Below are positions 42,883-56,256 of a DNA stretch of 64,000 nucleotides, piece after piece (within the stretch, counting starts at the first letter, position 1; every line of letters starts with the position of its first letter). Under the pieces are notes generated by a model. It saw only the letters and a program-made list of their open reading frames with translations, was not told where the DNA came from and did no database searches. This DNA comes from Anadara kagoshimensis (Eukaryota; Mollusca; Bivalvia; Arcoida; Arcidae), in contig CM037864.1 in assembly GCA_021292105.1 (NCBI GenBank), positions 40,972,514 to 41,036,513 of the forward strand. The letters run 5' to 3'. The position numbers and the translations under genes are program-made.

Positions 42883-45800
42883 GTATGTTTTAAAATCTAT
42901 ATATCTACATACATTTATTTATTTGTTAGGTGAGAATTTTACCCCTGTTAATATATTGTTCAACTATATGACAAACATGAATTTTTACAATAGTGTAAAT
43001 TTTCTGCTCCAGACAGAAAAAATCCCAAGGGACTCAAGTCTGTTTACAAATTTGGTACAAACTCATTATTTCTGAACAATAAATGTATTTCTGTAATTGT
43101 TTACATTTGGCAAATATAGACAGCTTTACAAATTATTGCTTACACAAACACATATCATTCTTGTACTTTCAATGGGAGCCCGAGTAGGTTGTTTGGTTGG
43201 GTGGTTGGTAGATTGGTTGGTTGGTTGGTTGGTTGGGTGGGTGATTGGTAGATTGGTTGGTTGGTTGGTTGGTTGGTTGGGTGTGGGGTTGGTTGGTTGA
43301 TTGGTTGGTTGTTTGGTTGGGTGGTTGGTAGATTGGTTGGTTGGTTGGTTGGTTGGTTGGTTGGTTAGTTGGTTGGTTGGTTGGTTGGTTGGGTGGGTGA
43401 TTGGTAGATTGGTTGGTTGGTTGGTTGGTTGGTTGGTTGGGTGGGTGGTTGGTTGGTTGGAATGGTGTTCCAAGAACGTTCCATTTATATCAAGTCAGTT
43501 AGTTCTGAAATGGTAGAGGAAACCAGAGTTCATAGATAAATATGTCCAGCAAGATGACAAAGTTTCTAACACTAGGATCTGCCCCATGTTTGCCTGGTTT
43601 CTGTGAGGACTAAGTATTTTAGAAAATTAGAATTTGCTTTAAAGGTAGGCAGAATGTATTGGTTGTTGTCTATCAAACATATGTTAAAACATTTTTCCTA
43701 AACGGTTGTTTAATTTAAAATAAAAAATAAAATTGATTTTTTTCATGTATCAGACAGAATTAAATCAATATAAGTAAGGATGGAAAAATTATAAAGTTTT
43801 AAATAAAAGAAATTAAAATGATATAATCAATAGAGATAACAACTAAATTACAAAAACCCACAAAAAAAATTGTAAATAGAACTCCAAGATGTTACTAGCT
43901 AAATTGTATGACATATTGGTATAAATCAGCGACAGATATCGGACAGATATTGACATGAATCTTATTTATTGTATACAGTACTTATATCTTTAACAACAAC
44001 TGTCAGCTTTTATATCAATCCCATAGCAATCCTACCCTGTCGAGAATCAGTTCATGAACTGATGAACTGTTGATGAACATTCATGAACTGTTCATGAACA
44101 TTCATGAACTGTCTGTCACAGTTCTTCAAAAATTCATCAAAGTAGTTCATCAAAAGTTCATCAACCAAAGTTCATGAATATTTCATGAACGTTCATCAAA
44201 AGTTCATCAAAACAAATTCATGAACCTTGTGCCATTTAAAGTTCATGAACTCTCCATAATCAGTTCATCAAAACATTACCGTAGTTCACGAACCTTAAAT
44301 GACTGACTGCCATTTGAAATTTTAATCTTGCAAGGTTCATTAAATTGTTAGTTCATGAACTAATGGATCTGATGAACCGTGTAACATGATTCAAAAGATG
44401 TGATGACAAACATTTTTATTTTTAACAAAGGGAGGTAATTTAGATGAAAATTTTAGCTCCAGAGTTATCTCACTTGATTCTGTATACATTGTATATGTCA
44501 TTCTGATGGCAAAAATAACTGAAAATCTTTGAAGGAAAGACAAAATTATGAACTGTAGCAGAATGTATTAGAGTCCAGACAATGTGAAATAATAAGTGAC
44601 CCAGTGACCTAGTTTTTGACCCAAAATGAGCCATATTTCAACCTGACTCATCTAGATACAAATTCTGACCAAGTCTGGTGAAGATAGGATGAAAACTGTT
44701 TGAACTAGAGTGCAGACAAGGTTTGTGACAGACAGACAGACAGACAAACTGAAGCAAATCAATTTGTGGTGGGAGACATAATAACCAAACCACCAATTGC
44801 TGTTTTAACTATACGTTTACTTAAACACTGCATGACCATGAATATTTGGTGGTCTTGCAATGATGCAGTTACCACCAGAAACATTTATAAACCATATATT
44901 TTCATCCAAGTTTTGTGCTGAAAACAACTGACATTCATTTCCAATTTTTCCAGGAACAAGATGTTTCCCTGAATCATTCACCAAGTAATTGTCATTTGTT
45001 TCTACTGTAAGGGTTACTGCAAACACTTCCTTCACATCTGGATGGAAAACGTAGTATAAAACTACTACAACTTCACCAGTTTTTGTCAACACTGTGTAAC
45101 AGTTCTTTTTCTGCATTCTGTTGTAACTTCTGGAGTAAAAACGTTTTCCATTTCTAACAATTCGCAGTGCTTTTCTAATATGAAATACACTTTCAACGTT
45201 AAAATTATTTAACACTACAGGGGTATATGTATCCTCATGCAGCACAGATATAGTTCCTGCTAACTGGCAATTTTGGGCCTCCTGTAATTTCTTCCAAGTC
45301 TTATCATTTGATTCAAGCTGTAGATGGTTTCTGAGTAATGACTGGGCTTGTTTCAACTTCATTATCTGCTTTGTAACATTTCCAGTCCCATGCACAGTTT
45401 TTGTAACCATAGAGTTAATGTCTTCAAATGGAAAACAGCTCCAACTCCAAAGTGGGCCAAACAACTTCACATAATAAACCATATGACATCCAATGTTATG
45501 AATATTTAGCCCACAAGACCCTTCACCATATAATGCTGGGAACTGGGAGTGAAATTTTTGCAGCAGAACATCTGCTCTTTGTAATTCATGGAATGTAATG
45601 GAATCTCCTAGAAGTAGATAAATCCCTTCAGACAACAACGCAAAATGATCTAGATAGAGCTGTGGCAAAATTCCTTTCAAACATGGAAGTCCATAGTACA
45701 ACAGCCATGCCTGTAGCTCTGTTGCCTTCAGAGACGAGTAGTTTTTTTCCATGTCTCTTGGTAGTCTCTGCATGCATTCTGGTGGTTGTATAGACTTTAA

Positions 45801-48800
45801 TCTTGCAGATATTTCATTCAATTTGTTACCTACAAAGTATCCTTCTTTGGCATTAACTGGGGAAAACCATTTAGAAAGAAGTAATTTTGTTACCCCTAAA
45901 AGCACACAGTGCATGTAATCGGGCACCATTCCTTTCACAAGTGGAAAACCTTTAAGTTCTGTTAAACCAGATAAACCTTTAAACCCTTTGACTGGATGAC
46001 GTTCAGTAGACTGGGTCATTTGTTGTCTCACTCTGGCCTCTGTCCTTAAACTGCTTTTTTCTTGTTCTTCTCTGAAAGGAAAATATCTGCTGTAACCTTT
46101 TCCTTGTTTCACAGTTTTCCCAGGATCTTCGCAAGTAATGCACGAATCAGAACCATTGTACTGTTTCATGTTTAATACTGCTGCCTTGGCTGGCAAGTCA
46201 GCAGTTCCACAAATAACAGAAAGTTTGACACATACTGTCTCTAGGTCAACATTAACGTTCAAACCAGTATCATAAAGTTCATTTAATGTAGAAGCGAATG
46301 CTTTCAAATATGTTCCCATATTTGGTTTACCTTTGCCTTGCCAAATGCCAGCGATTATCATGTTTTCACGTGCAAACCTCACAGCAGGACTCAGTTCATT
46401 TAAAGCTATATACAATGGCCACAACTGAATATGACTGGAGGAATACAGACACATTCCATCGGTATTGAAGATAGCTGTCAAGTTATTTTCATTCAATAGA
46501 AAGTTATCTTCTAGTTCTTTATAAAAAGCACCATCTGTGATATCTGTTATTAAATTGGGCATTTCAACTTTCCTTCTTTGTCTGAGTGCCTTGTTTAGCT
46601 TGATATTATCCCATATTCCTGAAATGCAAAAGATTAATTGATTAATTACTCTAAAACACTGAATAACAATCAAGGTTAAATCAAAGACAAATATACAGAA
46701 ATAAAACTCTTATTAATCATGAAACCGGAAGACTGAAGGTGATAAATAGCACTGTCACAAGTAGAAATTGAGAAATATCTAGCAGGCTGAAACCAGTGAG
46801 AGATAGACGGACAGACAGTTCAGCTATATTGTTTAGTTAGGTTTGTTTTTGTTTTAACGCCCGTTTTCTACATTTTTCAGTTCTATACAGGCAGGTAGTT
46901 TAACAAGAGCGATCTATGATCACCTGTGTCCCCTGATGATAGCCAATTAAAGAAAAAAAGTTTTTATTCAAAGGCCATAACTCTGACGAAAATCATTGAA
47001 GTGGAAAATGCTGACAATATGCACAACTAGACTTGGTACTGATCATTCCTGTACAGTACAGGATGAAATTGCACAAGTAGTTTCTGAGGAGTAGTCCGGA
47101 CAAGTTTTGTGATGGACGGACAGACAGATGGACAGACAGACGATGGAAAAGTGATTCCTAAATGTCACATCTACTCTGTAGCAGGCAACACAAAAATATA
47201 TACAAAGATTTCAGGTTATTTAGAATGACATACCTGGGGCTTGAAGAAGATTTGTCAATTGTTTCTTTATATTTGCAAGTACAAAACTTGCTCTAGGTTT
47301 TCCAACAATATGCTGATTTGGTCCCAAATATCGAATGCCATCACATCCAGGTTTCACACATGAAAAAATTTCAGGATCATTTGGAAATAGTTCCCCACAT
47401 TTCTCGCAGTAATGTATTTCATTTGCATAATCAGAATCTAGGACTGCCCACAATGCCTCATATTTTATTTCCTTAAGGGCTACATCATATGGGAAACACC
47501 TTTTGAAGGTTGAAAGTATATCTTTACATGCAGTGGCTGGCAAATTATTTCTTATAAAACAAGACAATATGTTCAGTCTTGCTTTTGAGGGAGCACTTCC
47601 AGTGATATCAGAGTAATTTGAAGAACAACTGTCATCAAACTGGTCACTACTTGCACTGTCACTATTTGTACCCAATCCTTCGCTTTCAGTGTCTGAGTCA
47701 TCTGTATCAAATATTTCACTATAACTATCTGCATCATTTGTAGTTGTACTAGAGCTATCACTTTTTCTCCAGTCATCCTGATCTTCAGCAGCTTCATTTG
47801 TACTGACAGAGTCACAGTTTTCAAAATGTGTACATGTTTGTCCATTTTCAGTTTCATCCACAGTCATGTTTTCATTTAGTTCTTTATCATCTGAATATAA
47901 ACAGGAACTAGATTTGCTAAGGTTCTCACTCATGTCTGTGTTTACCAACCTGGAGGCTTCATCTGAAAATAAGTAAAACTCTCAACTAGAACTACGTATT
48001 TTCAATTTAAAATGAAAAAACCCAAGCCCCATTGGACACCAGAGTCCTAATTTGAACAATCTTGGTCATCCTGTGAGCACAAAAGTTTCAAACTAGTTAA
48101 TAAGTTTCAGACAAGAAGATTTATTTAAATACTTTACTTTTCCTCTTCAAAAGTCTTTATATAAAAGAGACCTGAGAGCATTTGTAAATTATTTTCATTA
48201 TCATAAAGGCCCATTAGTTTCTGACAAGAAAGGTATTTTAACGTTTTATACAAAGTCTATATAAAACTAAGAATCCTGGTATGGGCCTGAAACGAAACAT
48301 TTTATGACACCGATGAGAATCTTGCAGGGGCATAAAAAGAGCCAAAGAGGTCAGCCACAGGTCCTGGAATCATGATTAATCTAAATGATATTTGCTTAAT
48401 AGATTGGAATTAAACAAGAGCGGTCAGAGGAACCACACGCTCGACTATTCTCAGTGCTGGATAGTAAAACATAAGCTTGATAGTATAACATAAGCTTAAT
48501 AAGTTGCATGTTAAATCTTTACCAAAATTTCTAAGTTAAAGAGGGGCATAATTTTGACAAAATGCTTGATAGAGTTACCTCCTCTTGTCTACATGTTGGG
48601 GTCATTGTGGCAAACAAGTGTACAAAGTTTCAAAGCAATACCTATATGGACTTTGAAAATATTTGACTTTTTAAAAGAAACTGGTACGCAAAATCTTAAC
48701 ATTGTGCAACGTGTATTCTTCGAATAGTCAAGCTAAAAATAATACCTTCAGGTACCCTTGAATCACTGAATTGCAACTTTCGCTTTCGATAGTAAGCTGT

Positions 48801-51800
48801 ACTCTTAGGAATATCTATACTGCCATCCATCTCATACTTCTTATACTGCTTCTGTACTGGACCTGAATAAGAAGAAGTATCAAATTTTAGTGAAACATAA
48901 TTATGTACATGTATATTTATTTCATGGCTGTCAAGACAAAGTCTTTCTTTGGATGGAAAGTAGTTTGCTTTTGTGTGATGCCAGCTTTGAACCACCAAAA
49001 CACTGGGTCGCTCAACTGCAGACTGTCATGACTGGCAATAGCACAAATGTCAACACCATTTATTCTTAATTTCATGTGTCAAGTACACTGTATTCATATA
49101 TTTATGGCATCAAAAACTCGCCTATTATGGAGGTGTCCGCGTACTGGTAGTGTCCGCATACTGTTCCGGTCTGTCTACATAGGCCACAGACCCCAATTAA
49201 TTTCGTAGTGCATTCTAACCAAAAGTTGAGGCAAATTAAAAAAATCGCACCAGCTCAAACGAAATGAAACTTTGCAGGCACGAAGTATACCATAGTGTCA
49301 ATAAAATATTGAATTGTCAAAAAAATCGACCGCTGGTTTTTGCCGTACTGGCACAAAATATTTTTTTCATGAGTGACACTCCATTTTAGTGAAATAAACA
49401 CCAGCTTTATTAACCCTTGAACTTAGGTCACTTTACAACTTTCTGTTCAAAAAATGTTAATTTCAGGCAATCAAAATCACATTTCAAAGTGTATTCAGTA
49501 AAAAAATACTGGCAAAAATAAACGTTGTACTAGTATTTACGCAATTAAAATTTAAAAGAAAACACACTTTACAAGATAGGGGATTATATTCGTAGACCAC
49601 GAGCAAAGGGATGTAATTGGGATCTGTAGCCTACATGTACAATTTTCTAAGGAATGGGCGCAGCCATGTTTAATCGTAAATTTCATCTTTACGTACTCAT
49701 TTTATGTGCAGAATTCAAGTGATACAAAACAATGCGTCTTGAAGATAATTTACGATGACACAGTAAACACTCAAATCTCTGCCTCCCATTTTCTTCAACA
49801 ACACGATACTTGTTTATTTTATGCTCCATTGCTACTTTCACTTTAATACACAGAAGAGCGCCCTGCGAAGGTAAGGGAATCCCCGGAAAAACACGAACAT
49901 GTACGAACATAAAAAGCATACTCACCACAGCATTTCTGGTCTTTCTTGATACAAATTTTCCGTTATTATTTTTTGTTTTGTTTCCGATATAGAGGATAGA
50001 ACACAGAAGAGAGGCATAGCAAAAAAATATATAGTAATCCGTCAATGGCCGAAACAACTCGTACTTTCTCGGTTACGAGCATGCGCAGAAAACTCGGTTT
50101 TGAATTATGGCGGCCGAACGAAATTTGGTGTTTTGGCCGAAAGAAAATGCATGGTCAGTGGTTTCGAAATCAGCTATCAGCAATTCTGACAACAATGTTG
50201 GTTCACTGACATCAGCCAAATACGGTGGAAAGTTATACCCGGCTCTTATTATTGCAAGTAAGTGACATATTGTAAATTATGTAACAATCAAACGGTTGAA
50301 GATGAAAACCATTTAATTTTTTATCATCAATGTAAATATTTATGCCTGTATTGATGAGTGTGTGTATAGACATATATGTATATGTATGTGTTTATATTAT
50401 TCTGTTTATATATTTAATATTGCTGTATTATAAATAATGTATACATAGACACATGATATTTAAATTATTAATGTTTCTAATTATCAATTGTTGCTGATCT
50501 TTTTATTATTTTTATGCCGCCACTAAGAGGGGGGGGGCATTTAGATTTGCCCTTGTCCGTCCGTCTGTCCGTCCGTCACAAAACGTTGTGTCGCGTGTAC
50601 AGCCAAAAGTATTTGACCTACAGTCATGAAACTTTACAGGAATGTTTGTCAGCATATGTAGTTGTGCACCTGGGGTTTTGCGTTTGGATTATTTCAGTAT
50701 TGGCAGAGTTATTGCCCTTGAATTAGTAAAATTTCAATAATCAAATTTGTGTCGCGCATAACTCCAAAAGTATTTGACCTAGAGTCATGAAACTTTACAT
50801 GTAGATCCACAGGCTTGTGAACCGATGGTGGCCGGTCAGAGCCCGGCAGGTCCGACTCCTTGTTGCGACAATCTTTTGTATTTAGGTGTGAATGACACTT
50901 TCGTGTCAATTCCTGAATGCTCCAAACAAAACACTATATAATATCTTTTTACCAAACTTGTTATTTACTGAAACATCAATTTTGTAATGTGATATTCATA
51001 ATTGAGGGCAAATGTAATTTCAGCGGTTTTAAGACACACTAAAAAATTATAGACTGGAAAATCCTTACTTATTAAAATGTGCACTAAACTAAACTGTCAT
51101 TTACATTCCAGGGGGTTCAGACAAGATCCTAAATGTTGAAGGACAGAAGTTCCAAACATTCTTGAACGAAATATTGTTTGAGGAGACAGATGAGGCAGCA
51201 ATAATAAGAAGAGTAAAGGAAGAGTATCGTAAGTAATGAGAACAATTAAGGGCACTTTTAATAAAAATGGCACCAAAACTGAAAATGCAGGTCAAAATTC
51301 AAAACGAATCAATATATGTATATTATTTTGAGAAACAATCCTCGGACGTCATACTTTTAGGAAATGATTATGGGAAAGGTGAAACTTAAACTTAAAGCAT
51401 GAATTCGTTTTAGAACTTTGTCTTTAACTGGTAACAAAACTGCTATTAAAATTAAACATGAAAAACCACAATAAATTTGATTCAGATCAAAACAATAATA
51501 TTTAAGCTTTCTTAAATATTAAATGAGGATAGGGATATGTTTTATGCAGTTCCCATGTATGATATTTTCTCAGTATTGAAAAAAAACTTACACTTTTGCC
51601 GAAAACTTTCAGTTGCAGAGTCAAAGTCTTCAGTTGCTGACAATGCACCTACCCAGAACTCTGATGACACTGCATCTACCCAGAACTCTGATGATACCGC
51701 ACCTACCCAGAACTCAGATGACACCACACCTACCCGGAACTCCGATGTCACCAAATTAACTGCACCTACCCAGAACTCCGATGACACCAAATTACCTGCA

Positions 51801-54800
51801 GCTGTAGACTTTCAAGTTGCAACCATTGTTTCTTCTACTTCTGGTTAGTATTGCATGAGTAATCATGTTGACATTATTCCTACACTTGTCTTTTGTAATT
51901 TGAATATATATACCACTGTAGTATCATTTAATTTCACTGGCATGAAATTTTGCTAAAAGGCTACAAACTGCATTTTTGTGGTCTTAAAGTTGCACATTTT
52001 GATCCAGATGATGGCGCTTAACACATTCAAGATTGCAATATTTGCATTGTTTTAAATAAGCGCATAGATCTATGCGTGAAATACTGGAAATCAATCTACA
52101 CACAAAAATGATTCTACATAATTAGCCATCTCTGCGTTACATCACTCGCGGGTAATGAGGATATATCTGGTGGGCAGTGACCAAATGTTGCATTTACAAT
52201 GTTTAGACATGGGATAGGAATTTTTGAATTCAATTAACTTTCTGACTGTTTTATGGATTTTCACAATTTCACTCCATTATTTCTTGCACTATACAGCCTC
52301 ATGTAGTTTGTATGGCAGTATTGTTTGACCTATATAGTAGTAGTTAGGGACAAATTTTGCTAGAAAACAATATTTGCTGATGTTTTTCAGATTCTGTTAC
52401 TGCTGAGAGCTCTGCTAACACCAAGGCTTCTGATGCAGATGACAAACGTAATCAACCTGCAGCAGAATCCCCCTTCATAAAAAAAAGGGCACATGAATCG
52501 TCCAGCATAAGAGGTAATTAGGCAATTTTCTGAAAGCCAGCAAGTTAAGCTTAAGTTTTACTACATGTTGAAGTTCGGGACCATGGCCATTAAGCGATTT
52601 GATAAATCCACCGCTATCGCACCAACAGCTTGGATCATATTATGGAGCCTAACAGGAAGGAATTGATTTTGGCTACTCTCACATGTGAAACATTTCACAT
52701 TGAAGCAAAACCACCCACCTGCCATCGTCGGAAACCCACGGTTGATTACGTGTCGTTCCTATCTCCATCACCCGTGGGTCCATTCATACCAATTCGCTCG
52801 TTCTCATGAATAATTAATGAGACAATTTGATTGGTCGCTCTTGATACACCTAAAGCGATATCGTCCAATGAGGTAGCCCCTTTCAGTGCTTTTTCGCATT
52901 ATTCATCAAAATTACAGGTTACAGAAATTTTACCTTCAAAACAGGAGAGTTCTTCTTATCTACAACGGCTAATTTCATTGGACAATAAATTTTATGAATA
53001 TTCATGAGAAACGAGAGCATTGGTATGAATGGACCCATGGGTGATGGAGATAGAAACGACACCTAATCAACCGTGGGTTTCCGACGATGCCCACCTGCTG
53101 AACTCCAAGAGTTATCAAGACCCTAAAAAAGGTGGAATGGTATTTGATAGGAGCCTGTATGTTTATGACCAAAAGCTGCAAAATTCAACATTGTGATTTT
53201 GTGTATGCATTAAAATCTCATACTGTCTTTGGGCACTCTAGCAATAGTTTTGGTCATTAAAACTTTGTAAGCCTATGAAAAGTCTGCCTGGGCTCCATAA
53301 CCAGTACAAGTCTAACTCTTGGTTTTACTGGAAGTGACTGACACCCAATTAGTGGTGGAATGGAATGACCTCAGAAAGATTTTATTGACATCACCAGAGA
53401 GGTCATACCAGGGCTCAAACTTGCCTTTCAAAACAAAATTTTTACTGGACTTAGCACTATTGATGCAAAGCACCATATGGTTTATATCATAGTTAACATG
53501 TTTTTGTCTGTGTGTCTGTGCGCCTGGCATATACTTTTTCCTTGAACTACATTTCTCCGAAACAAACCGCCTGAAATTTGATGAACTTCACACAAGATAC
53601 TAAGACTGAAGTCCCGACTTTTGACAAGATTCTATATATCTACAGGAACTAAAATTAATGTTTTACTTCTGATATTTTTGGATAAAGCTAAAACCATACA
53701 TGTACTTGGATGCAATATTGTCTGTTATTATTTCAGCAGCAGGACCAAATTGGAGCGAGATGTGGACTATCTTATGGGTGAAGTGAAGAGGCTGAAAGGC
53801 AGAGTGAAGAAGCTTGAACATGTTGGAAGTCCTGAAACACAGAAGATGGAAACTCAGAATGGAAACTCAGAAGATGGAGAGCAAGGAAGCCAAAACATGT
53901 CAGCCCCAGGAAACCACTTCAAGTGTAGTGCAAATAATTGAAGGCAGTAACAATGTCTCCCAGGCAATTACAACATTATTGAAAACTTTGTTTACCAATG
54001 AAGAACTGAAGTCTTGCTCAATCACTGGCAAGAAATCTCCAAAATGCATTGGCCAGCCTAGACCACCACTGGATCAAGGGAAGTATGAAAAATTGTGCGA
54101 GTGTGTAAGGGCAAAGTTCCCGGGGACAGAAAAAAAAATTATCATAGAAAAAATACAGAACATCCAAAAAGTTCTCAGGAGGCAGTAGGAGGAGGAGTTA
54201 CACACTTTGTATACTAGTCTACTGACATAATTTACTAAAGTCATGTATTATGCAAACTCCATATTAAAACACTTAAAAAGTCTGTGTCTCATTCATTATG
54301 TCTCCCCCAAAGGTGACCTTAACGCTCTAATGGTCATAGTTTTGATCCAGTCTTCACCAGCTTGGTTGGAATGTTCATTCTCACTGGGTCATGTTACTTA
54401 GGGTAAAAACTAGACCACTAGGTCAAAGAAAAAGCAAGTTTACATTCTTGATGTTGGAGCTTTGACCCAATCTTCATCAGTTCTGTCCGAATGTTCATCA
54501 GACGTCAACGTAAAGTTTGAATAATCGGTTAAACAAAAACAAGGTCACTTAAAGGTCAAATCAGGTTCATGAACTTGTGAGGTTCATGTGTTCATGAACT
54601 TGTGAAGTTCATGAACTTCATGTTCATGAACTTGTGAAGTTCATGTATTTCAAGTTCATGAACTTGTTAAGTTCATGAACTTGTAAAACAGTTCATGAAC
54701 TCAATTTGTCCAAATTGCTGTTCATGAACTGTTCATGAACTGTTCATGAACTATTCATGAACTTTGTTCATGAACTATTCATGAACTGTTCATTAAATTA

Positions 54801-56256
54801 TCGACAGGGTATTAATATGAATTGTAGACCTATACAAATATACAAATTGGTTTTCAACCTACGTTAAAGGAAAATTCTATATTCTATTGTCCAGAGACAC
54901 AAATGCTGTTTATGTTTTTCCTATTCGATGTAAAATTTTGACATCCAGCACAAAGTGTATATATATTCTATTACATGTATCTGGATTTACAAACTCTGTT
55001 AGTGGTTTTTTTCCTATTAGATGTAGATGTAAATTAGGGAATCAAGCTCAAAGTATATACTCTATTGTCCCAAAGTATCAATCGCTAACATATTGTCCCA
55101 AAGTAACAATGGCTATTAGCGGGTTTTCCATTAGATGTAAAATTATGGAATCTAGCACCAAGATAAATATTATTAGACAAACATAGACTGTAAAATAATA
55201 AGATTAATTAAGCAGTGATCAATTATTTAGGCTCTAACTTAACAGGGTTCAAATTTTAGGCCATTTCTATAGCTTGGAGACCTGAAACTTTTCATTTAGA
55301 TCTGTGATATGTTGTAAACTCTACTTTATTGTTTCTAGTAGAAAATATCAAAATTTGAGATTCAGAGGCTGGTAAAACATTCAGTCTCACAAAAGGTGTT
55401 TATCCTTGGAGAGCAACCGGCCTGACTTTCCTGATGTTTTTACCAAATTTGCCAGTTTTTCAAAGTTTTTACTTTTGCCTTTTGGATTGTGGTATGAACA
55501 TGGATCAGCATATTATATTTGTTTTTTATTCAGACACTGAAACTTAATATAAGTATAATGTTACTTAGCAACAAAACAAGCTTCCAAAGTCACCAAAACA
55601 CTTGCTTCAGTTTAATATTGGCAACGCTTTAAAGGCCTAACCAAAAAAAAAATTCCTAAAAACAGCTCAATTTATCAGAAACACAAAAGTATTTTATCTG
55701 ATATGCTATGAAAATTGATGTGGCATACATTTTAGGGGTAGCTTAATAATCATTAAAGACATTGCTGAAACTGACATACTGGGACAAGGTTCTTAGTTCT
55801 CCTTGGGAATGTTTCTCATTTGAAAACAGGAATAAATATCCAAGGTTATCTCAGGAAGTGGACAAAGGTCATTTAGCTTTACTGATCCCTAAAATCACCT
55901 TAAAACTATCCAGAAACCCAAGTATGAAACAAAGGTCAATGTTCTATTCAACCAACAGTTTATCACTTTTATTCCAAGATAGGATGGCTATGACACTAAT
56001 AAGAACCTGGCTTTAAACACATGATAAAGTATTGTTTTAATCTGTAATATCCCTTAATGTTGTTAATGACCTCTGTCTCAGGATTGTTTCAGGGTTGATT
56101 TACAATGTGTCCGCTTTAACTTTCAACTTCGGACATTCAACTTGTGATGGCCAGTTATCTACTTTTAGCTCACCTTTCTGTGGGAAAATTCACACATACC
56201 TCAAGTGGACCAGTGGATGTCCAGACTACTAAAGGTCACACTGTCAGATTTCAAAA

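Follow-up and report, generated by a model that had tools for sequence, protein, structure and literature searches.

Does a BEN-domain gene that stands beside a transposase gene belong to the working parts of an animal transposon, and what would its protein do there? The question is raised by a 64,000-nucleotide stretch of the Anadara kagoshimensis genome (contig CM037864.1, positions 40,972,514 to 41,036,513; hereafter the window), in which a transposon occupies positions 44035-54809. An original prediction, made from the letters of the window alone, had proposed a CMC-type element with a two-protein design comparable to that of plant En/Spm, where a catalytic TnpD is accompanied by TnpA. Our follow-up makes it probable that this is a recently active, two-protein, cut-and-paste Mirage/TRC CMC transposon of an animal, with the BEN protein acting in a TnpA-like manner on the subterminal palindromes of its own family. 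The two-protein design with a BEN protein is new, and the divergent transposase-BEN pair recurs in six groups of one genome.

Ends, genes, and copies of the element

We examined a genome of 1.115 Gb in 36 contigs, for which every copy number given here is a lower bound. Using the left end of the element, we found at least two further copies, C3:63940588-63954044 (13.46 kb) and C13:3631421-3645652 (14.23 kb). Both start and finish at the same bases as the window element, and the BEN gene, whose exclusion from other copies had been named in advance as grounds for doubt, lies within these boundaries in each (its first part only in C13). The element in the window is laid out as follows.

44033-44034, no strand: TA, left 2-bp target-site duplication, outside the sequence common with C3 and pairing with 54810-54811
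44035-44043, no strand: left terminal inverted repeat CCCTGTCGA (comparison of copies and exact-site search)
44050-44360, no strand: left subterminal GTTCATGAAC array, 12 sites with at most one mismatch
44817-44819, minus: transposase stop codon, adjoining exon 4
44820-46618, minus: transposase exon 4, with the DDE core and a C-terminal BAH-like predicted fold
47234-47962, minus: transposase exon 3 (predicted from consensus splice sites)
48746-48862, minus: transposase exon 2 (predicted)
49697-49829, minus: transposase exon 1, with the start codon and a C2H2 zinc finger (predicted)
49830-50106, no strand: stretch between the genes, 277 bp from start codon to start codon (from position)
50107-50257, plus: BEN gene exon 1 (model taken from C3)
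51112-51228, plus: BEN gene exon 2 (model taken from C3)
51613-51843, plus: BEN gene exon 3 (model taken from C3)
52391-52513, plus: BEN gene exon 4, with a frame break (1 base missing relative to C3 and C13)
53737-54188, plus: BEN gene exon 5, with coiled coil and BEN domain (Pfam; fold of the relative P0121)
54565-54786, no strand: right subterminal GTTCATGAAC array, 13 sites with at most one mismatch
54801-54809, no strand: right terminal inverted repeat TCGACAGGG (comparison of copies and exact-site search)
54810-54811, no strand: TA, right 2-bp target-site duplication

Inverted repeats were indeed present at both ends, as predicted, with TACCCTGTCGA found at two exact sites in the window, one per end. 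Comparison of the copies set their length at 9 bp rather than the proposed 11 bp: the outer TA is absent from C3, where the left flank reads ATT, and we interpret it as most likely a target duplication of 2 bp. The left-end pattern CCCTGTCGANAATNNGTTCATGAAC has three exact sites genome-wide, one per copy, and all three copies begin with the CCC-type repeat CCCTGTCGA. A 2-bp duplication flanks two of the three (TA/TA in the window and TT/TT in C3; the C13 flanks are TA/TG).

The transposase gene lies on the minus strand and encodes 926 amino acids in four predicted exons; the spliced frame is free of stops and intact in the window copy, as had been claimed. Its better Pfam match is DUF1258 (E = 1.8e-9; 38 bits, cut-off 33.1), ahead of Transposase_21 (E = 7.8e-8; 32.2 bits, cut-off 28.6). 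The motifs NTDG, DLPAK, CITC, HNIGCH, and FPFED occur in this order and match the D, D, C(2)C, H(3-4)H, E pattern, of which the D, D, C, C, H, H, and E are invariant across 14 aligned sequences; our assignment of catalytic residues among these conserved positions is presumptive. The predicted fold of the catalytic region is RAG1/Transib-like, on fold lists that leave room for other folds. Together, the Pfam matches, the D, D, C(2)C, H(4)H, E residues, and the predicted fold support the CMC type of the original prediction. The C2H2 finger of exon 1 is also present in the relatives P0003, P0007, P0020, P0058, and P0083. No transposase relatives were found by tblastn in viral contigs, with a single protein or with alignment A1, or in genome contigs, with alignment A1.

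The second gene is on the plus strand, divergent from the transposase gene, and does encode a BEN domain (PF10523; E = 2e-12). It is not complete in the window, as it had been taken to be. Exon 4 is one base short and a tandem repeat in exon 5 (∼53834-53878) shifts the frame again, so that the coiled coil and the BEN domain stand in different frames. Reading the exon 5 break as a 13-bp duplication was dropped, as the repeat unit there measures 15 bp in C3 and C13, which reveal the exon 4 break as well. The predicted structure of the BEN relative P0121 matches the folds of BEND6, Insv, and NACC1, and the predicted N-terminal portion of the BEN protein (208 amino acids) has no Pfam match over the cut-off. 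From its position, the 277-bp stretch between the start codons is likely a bidirectional promoter.

The three copies are differently damaged. In C3, the predicted 357-amino-acid BEN gene is unbroken but the transposase is broken; in C13, the transposase is intact (with differences at 2 of 926 residues), but the BEN domain and the right array are lost. A full transposase frame is thus kept in two of three copies. With the ends and two rearranged stretches of intron excluded, noncoding divergence amounts to 0.13 to 0.14% (7/5,397 window-C3, 7/5,050 window-C13, and 7/5,049 C3-C13); ∼50474-51100 was left out because it was misplaced in the three-copy MAFFT alignment. Transposase exons differ at 2/2,767, 4/2,778, and 4/2,767 positions and BEN exons at 5/1,064, 2/817, and 1/817 positions in the same pairs, respectively.

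The copies also differ in larger blocks. At ∼47079 and ∼49113, C3 and C13 carry ∼1.4 kb and 753 bp that the window does not, through either window deletions or insertions common to C3 and C13; the extra ∼1.4 kb adjoins a direct repeat. In BEN intron 1, C3 has ∼1.0 kb of different sequence in place of ∼50474-50971, which C13 retains with ∼1.25 kb extra preceding it. BEN intron 4 contains, in all three copies, 80-bp inverted repeats (52723-53089; 94% complementary, 207 bp apart) that are likely a nested small transposon.

Recurrence of the gene pair and its palindromes

A BEN search with P0121 as the query returned 31 rows, or 27 loci after merging, with 58 of 58 candidates scored. The transposase search returned 75 rows, or 61 loci after merging, from the 73 candidates scored out of 224. 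In 21 of the 27 BEN loci, a transposase lies on the opposite strand 7.2 to 16.9 kb upstream (within 20 kb), as in the window. Uniform placement would give 0.015 paired BEN loci with copies counted singly, or ∼0.05 if all 224 transposase candidates were loci. The divergent pair was found in six groups: the window family (3 of 3 loci), B (3 of 4), C (4 of 5), D (9 of 10), E (1 of 1), and F (1 of 1). Groups B, C, and D consist of 4, 5, and 10 near-identical loci (98 to 99.97% in compared pairs). None of the three loci A, G, and the relic on C9 was paired within 20 kb. Among the BEN loci outside the pairs, three (C15:37100567, C14:69291599, and C18:15225139) lack any scored transposase in the upstream 40 kb, two (C9:14076255 and C14:69256628) have a correctly oriented one ∼30 kb away, and for A (C9:27419933) the one at 28 kb lies on the wrong strand. 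Seen from the other side, 21 of the 61 scored transposase loci are paired with a BEN match. The transposase relative P0025 and the BEN relative P0132 are each listed on 3 contigs, the longest being 3,092,853 bases in either case; these may be identical contigs, and the coincidence carries no weight in our account.

The palindromes were analyzed alongside. With up to one mismatch, GTTCATGAAC has 31 sites in the window against 2.87 expected, a count reached in none of 100 shuffles. Twenty-five of these sites lie inside the element, all of them in the two arrays listed above and none between, which bears out the predicted arrays just inside both ends. With up to two mismatches, the commonest spacing is 10 or 11 bp (12 of 30 intervals), about one helical turn.

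Palindromes were also present downstream of the BEN exon in 25 of 25 loci examined (the 27 loci less C13, which has lost its array, and one row for which no locus was fetched). Per 1.5 kb, the motif of each group has 4 to 25 sites downstream of the BEN match and 0 or 1 upstream, compared with 0.06 to 0.17 in the window outside the element. These counts allow one mismatch, and related motifs overlap; as the motifs were picked from the same loci, the counts are descriptive and the upstream halves serve as the control. The window family, A, and B share the motif GTTCATGAAC (in B the signal is weak, with 4 sites in a fetched locus that may stop within the array). Group C and the C9 relic have mixed GTTCNNGAAC, groups E, F, and G have GTTCTAGAAC together with AA/TT forms, and D has RACCATGGTY. 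A blind count of all 10-bp palindromes was above the shuffled control in the window family, A, C, the C9 relic, D, and E. From family to family, the BEN protein and the palindrome appear to diversify together.

By comparison of copies, right ends finish in GGG in all 6 cases for C (counting the C9 relic) and in all 9 for D, and those of A, E, F, and G, read by eye, also contain GGG. Family-D left ends have CCCAGACG in 6 of 6 cases, each with 11 D-type palindromes, and all five family-D copies having both flanks show an exact 2-bp duplication.

The C9 relic itself (G000 C9:14076255-14077565; L018-L019, L040) consists of a BEN exon in decay with 16 GTTCNNGAAC palindromes after it, and the 40 kb fetched contain no others; it was first located from the array alone. 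Adjoining the window element, an open frame of PT disordered repeats lies on the minus strand at 43126-43494 (Pfam E = 1.1e-24).

Possible roles of the BEN protein

If the BEN protein is a TnpA-like factor, it would dimerize through its coiled coil, and its BEN domains would occupy the 10-bp palindromes of its own family. Arrays loaded in this way could draw the two ends of the element together and, at the short CCC termini, recruit the transposase or regulate it, as TnpA does beside TnpD. The window copy would now be mobile only if BEN protein were supplied from elsewhere. We infer both the binding of BEN protein to the arrays and a need for it in transposition from sequence, with support from BEN group and motif going together. 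The BEN domain of NACC1 binds CATG palindromes and covers 10 bp (PMC11472053; PMC7764960).

Several observations weigh against this reading. No BEN match of this kind lies within 20 kb of 40 of the 61 scored transposase loci, perhaps because certain branches lack BEN or because their BEN sequences have diverged beyond the reach of the query. The BEN matches of family D are weak (E = 3.7e-4), and two stops interrupt the matched stretch; in L045, the sole D locus translated, an open 175-amino-acid stretch spans the coil and the BEN domain. Copies within one family are not independent, both genes are intact in none of the three window-family copies found, and the C13 flanks show no clean duplication. 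In B, F, and G, the blind palindrome count is barely or not above shuffles, and the signal there rests on the named motif. The correspondence between BEN group and motif is descriptive, and the cores in C, E, F, and G (CTAG, AA/TT, or mixed) are unexplained by CATG recognition.

The strongest alternative, possible though in our judgment somewhat doubtful, is that the BEN protein represses or insulates the element, in self-limitation or in escape from silencing, much as Insv or ELBA might; it would bind the arrays for transcriptional control and be dispensable for excision. Proteins of the BEN-solo type act as repressors and as insulator factors (PMC6911014, PMC6317261), TnpA of En/Spm has suppressor and promoter roles (PMC1636069, PMC2613891), and the window copy combines an intact transposase with a broken BEN gene, all of which fit such a role. 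The arrays, however, adjoin the terminal repeats rather than surrounding the central promoter region, and the two roles can coexist, as they do in TnpA.

Far less credible is the chance capture of a host BEN gene as cargo by one element, with the palindromes bound by the zinc finger of the transposase. Such a finger exists, and the many transposase loci with no detected BEN partner would suit this account. It is largely refuted by the recurrence of the same divergent pair in five more BEN groups (B, C, D, E, and F), in which differing palindromes lie downstream of the BEN exon. Least likely of all, and hardly tenable, is the idea that unrelated repeats came together here by chance or that the region is a fossil: the frame breaks in the BEN gene and the nested inverted repeat could be taken as decay, but copies with common ends differ by so little outside the coding parts, and two of three retain the transposase frame.

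A TnpA-like BEN protein would give animals a two-protein transposon comparable to En/Spm. As several families in one genome have different BEN proteins and differing palindromes, the choice of DNA by BEN domains is directly testable, as is what subterminal arrays contribute to CMC transposition. We hold the odds to be about even on a wider proposition: that in an animal CMC lineage, whose transposase has a BAH-like chromatin-reader fold, BEN proteins are dedicated end-recognition factors that codiversify with 10-bp palindromes (GTTCATGAAC, GTTCTAGAAC, other GTTCNNGAAC, and RACCATGGTY), and that such elements may have exchanged BEN genes with the insulator and repressor proteins of the host. 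To our knowledge, the BEN family has been known only from chromatin and viral proteins, and the origin of animal BEN genes is raised as a question. Among the papers listed in our literature searches, judged by titles, openings of abstracts, and excerpts of PMC5704228, PMC11075544, and PMC4574769 (Repbase and the original BEN paper lay outside this scope), we found no description of a BEN gene in a transposon.

Comparison with known systems

The features tested support assigning the element to the Mirage/TRC branch of CMC; the sole exception is the C13 flank. Animal TRC/CACTA elements have CCC terminal repeats and 2-bp duplications (PMC1636069), DUF1258 marks the Mirage group (PMC3985635), and CMC-like lineages, whose transposases are defined by D, D, C(2)C, H(3-4)H, E residues, have target duplications of 2 to 5 bp (PMC12730594). 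The TRC/CACTA elements of Schistosoma (SmTRC1), Aedes, and Tribolium share with ours Transposase_21, CCC ends, and a 2-bp duplication (in 7 of 14 copies there), and the Aedes element is similar in size (9.2 kb, with 10-bp repeats). Unlike here, the excerpt describing them mentions neither a BEN gene nor a palindrome array, and SmTRC1 makes several proteins through alternative splicing (PMC1636069). The Mirage group shares the better Pfam match of our transposase, and the excerpt describing it mentions no second gene (PMC3985635).

In plant En/Spm, TnpD and TnpA work together at the subterminal repeats, and both the second protein and these repeats vary from one plant family to another (PMC2613891). 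The likeness lies in a catalytic tnp2-type protein joined by a second protein and in family-variable subterminal repeats inside both ends (PMC2613891, PMC1636069). The element described here differs from En/Spm proper in having CCC rather than CACTA termini, a 2-bp rather than a 3-bp duplication, and two divergent genes rather than splice forms, the second encoding a BEN protein; the two-protein design of the original prediction is supported by the recurring pairs and palindromes, with TnpA as a functional analogy. The host proteins Insv, Elba, BEND6, and NACC1 resemble the second protein in their BEN domain and palindromic DNA targets, and the CATG core of NACC1 sites resembles the palindromes here; unlike the transposon protein, they are host regulators.
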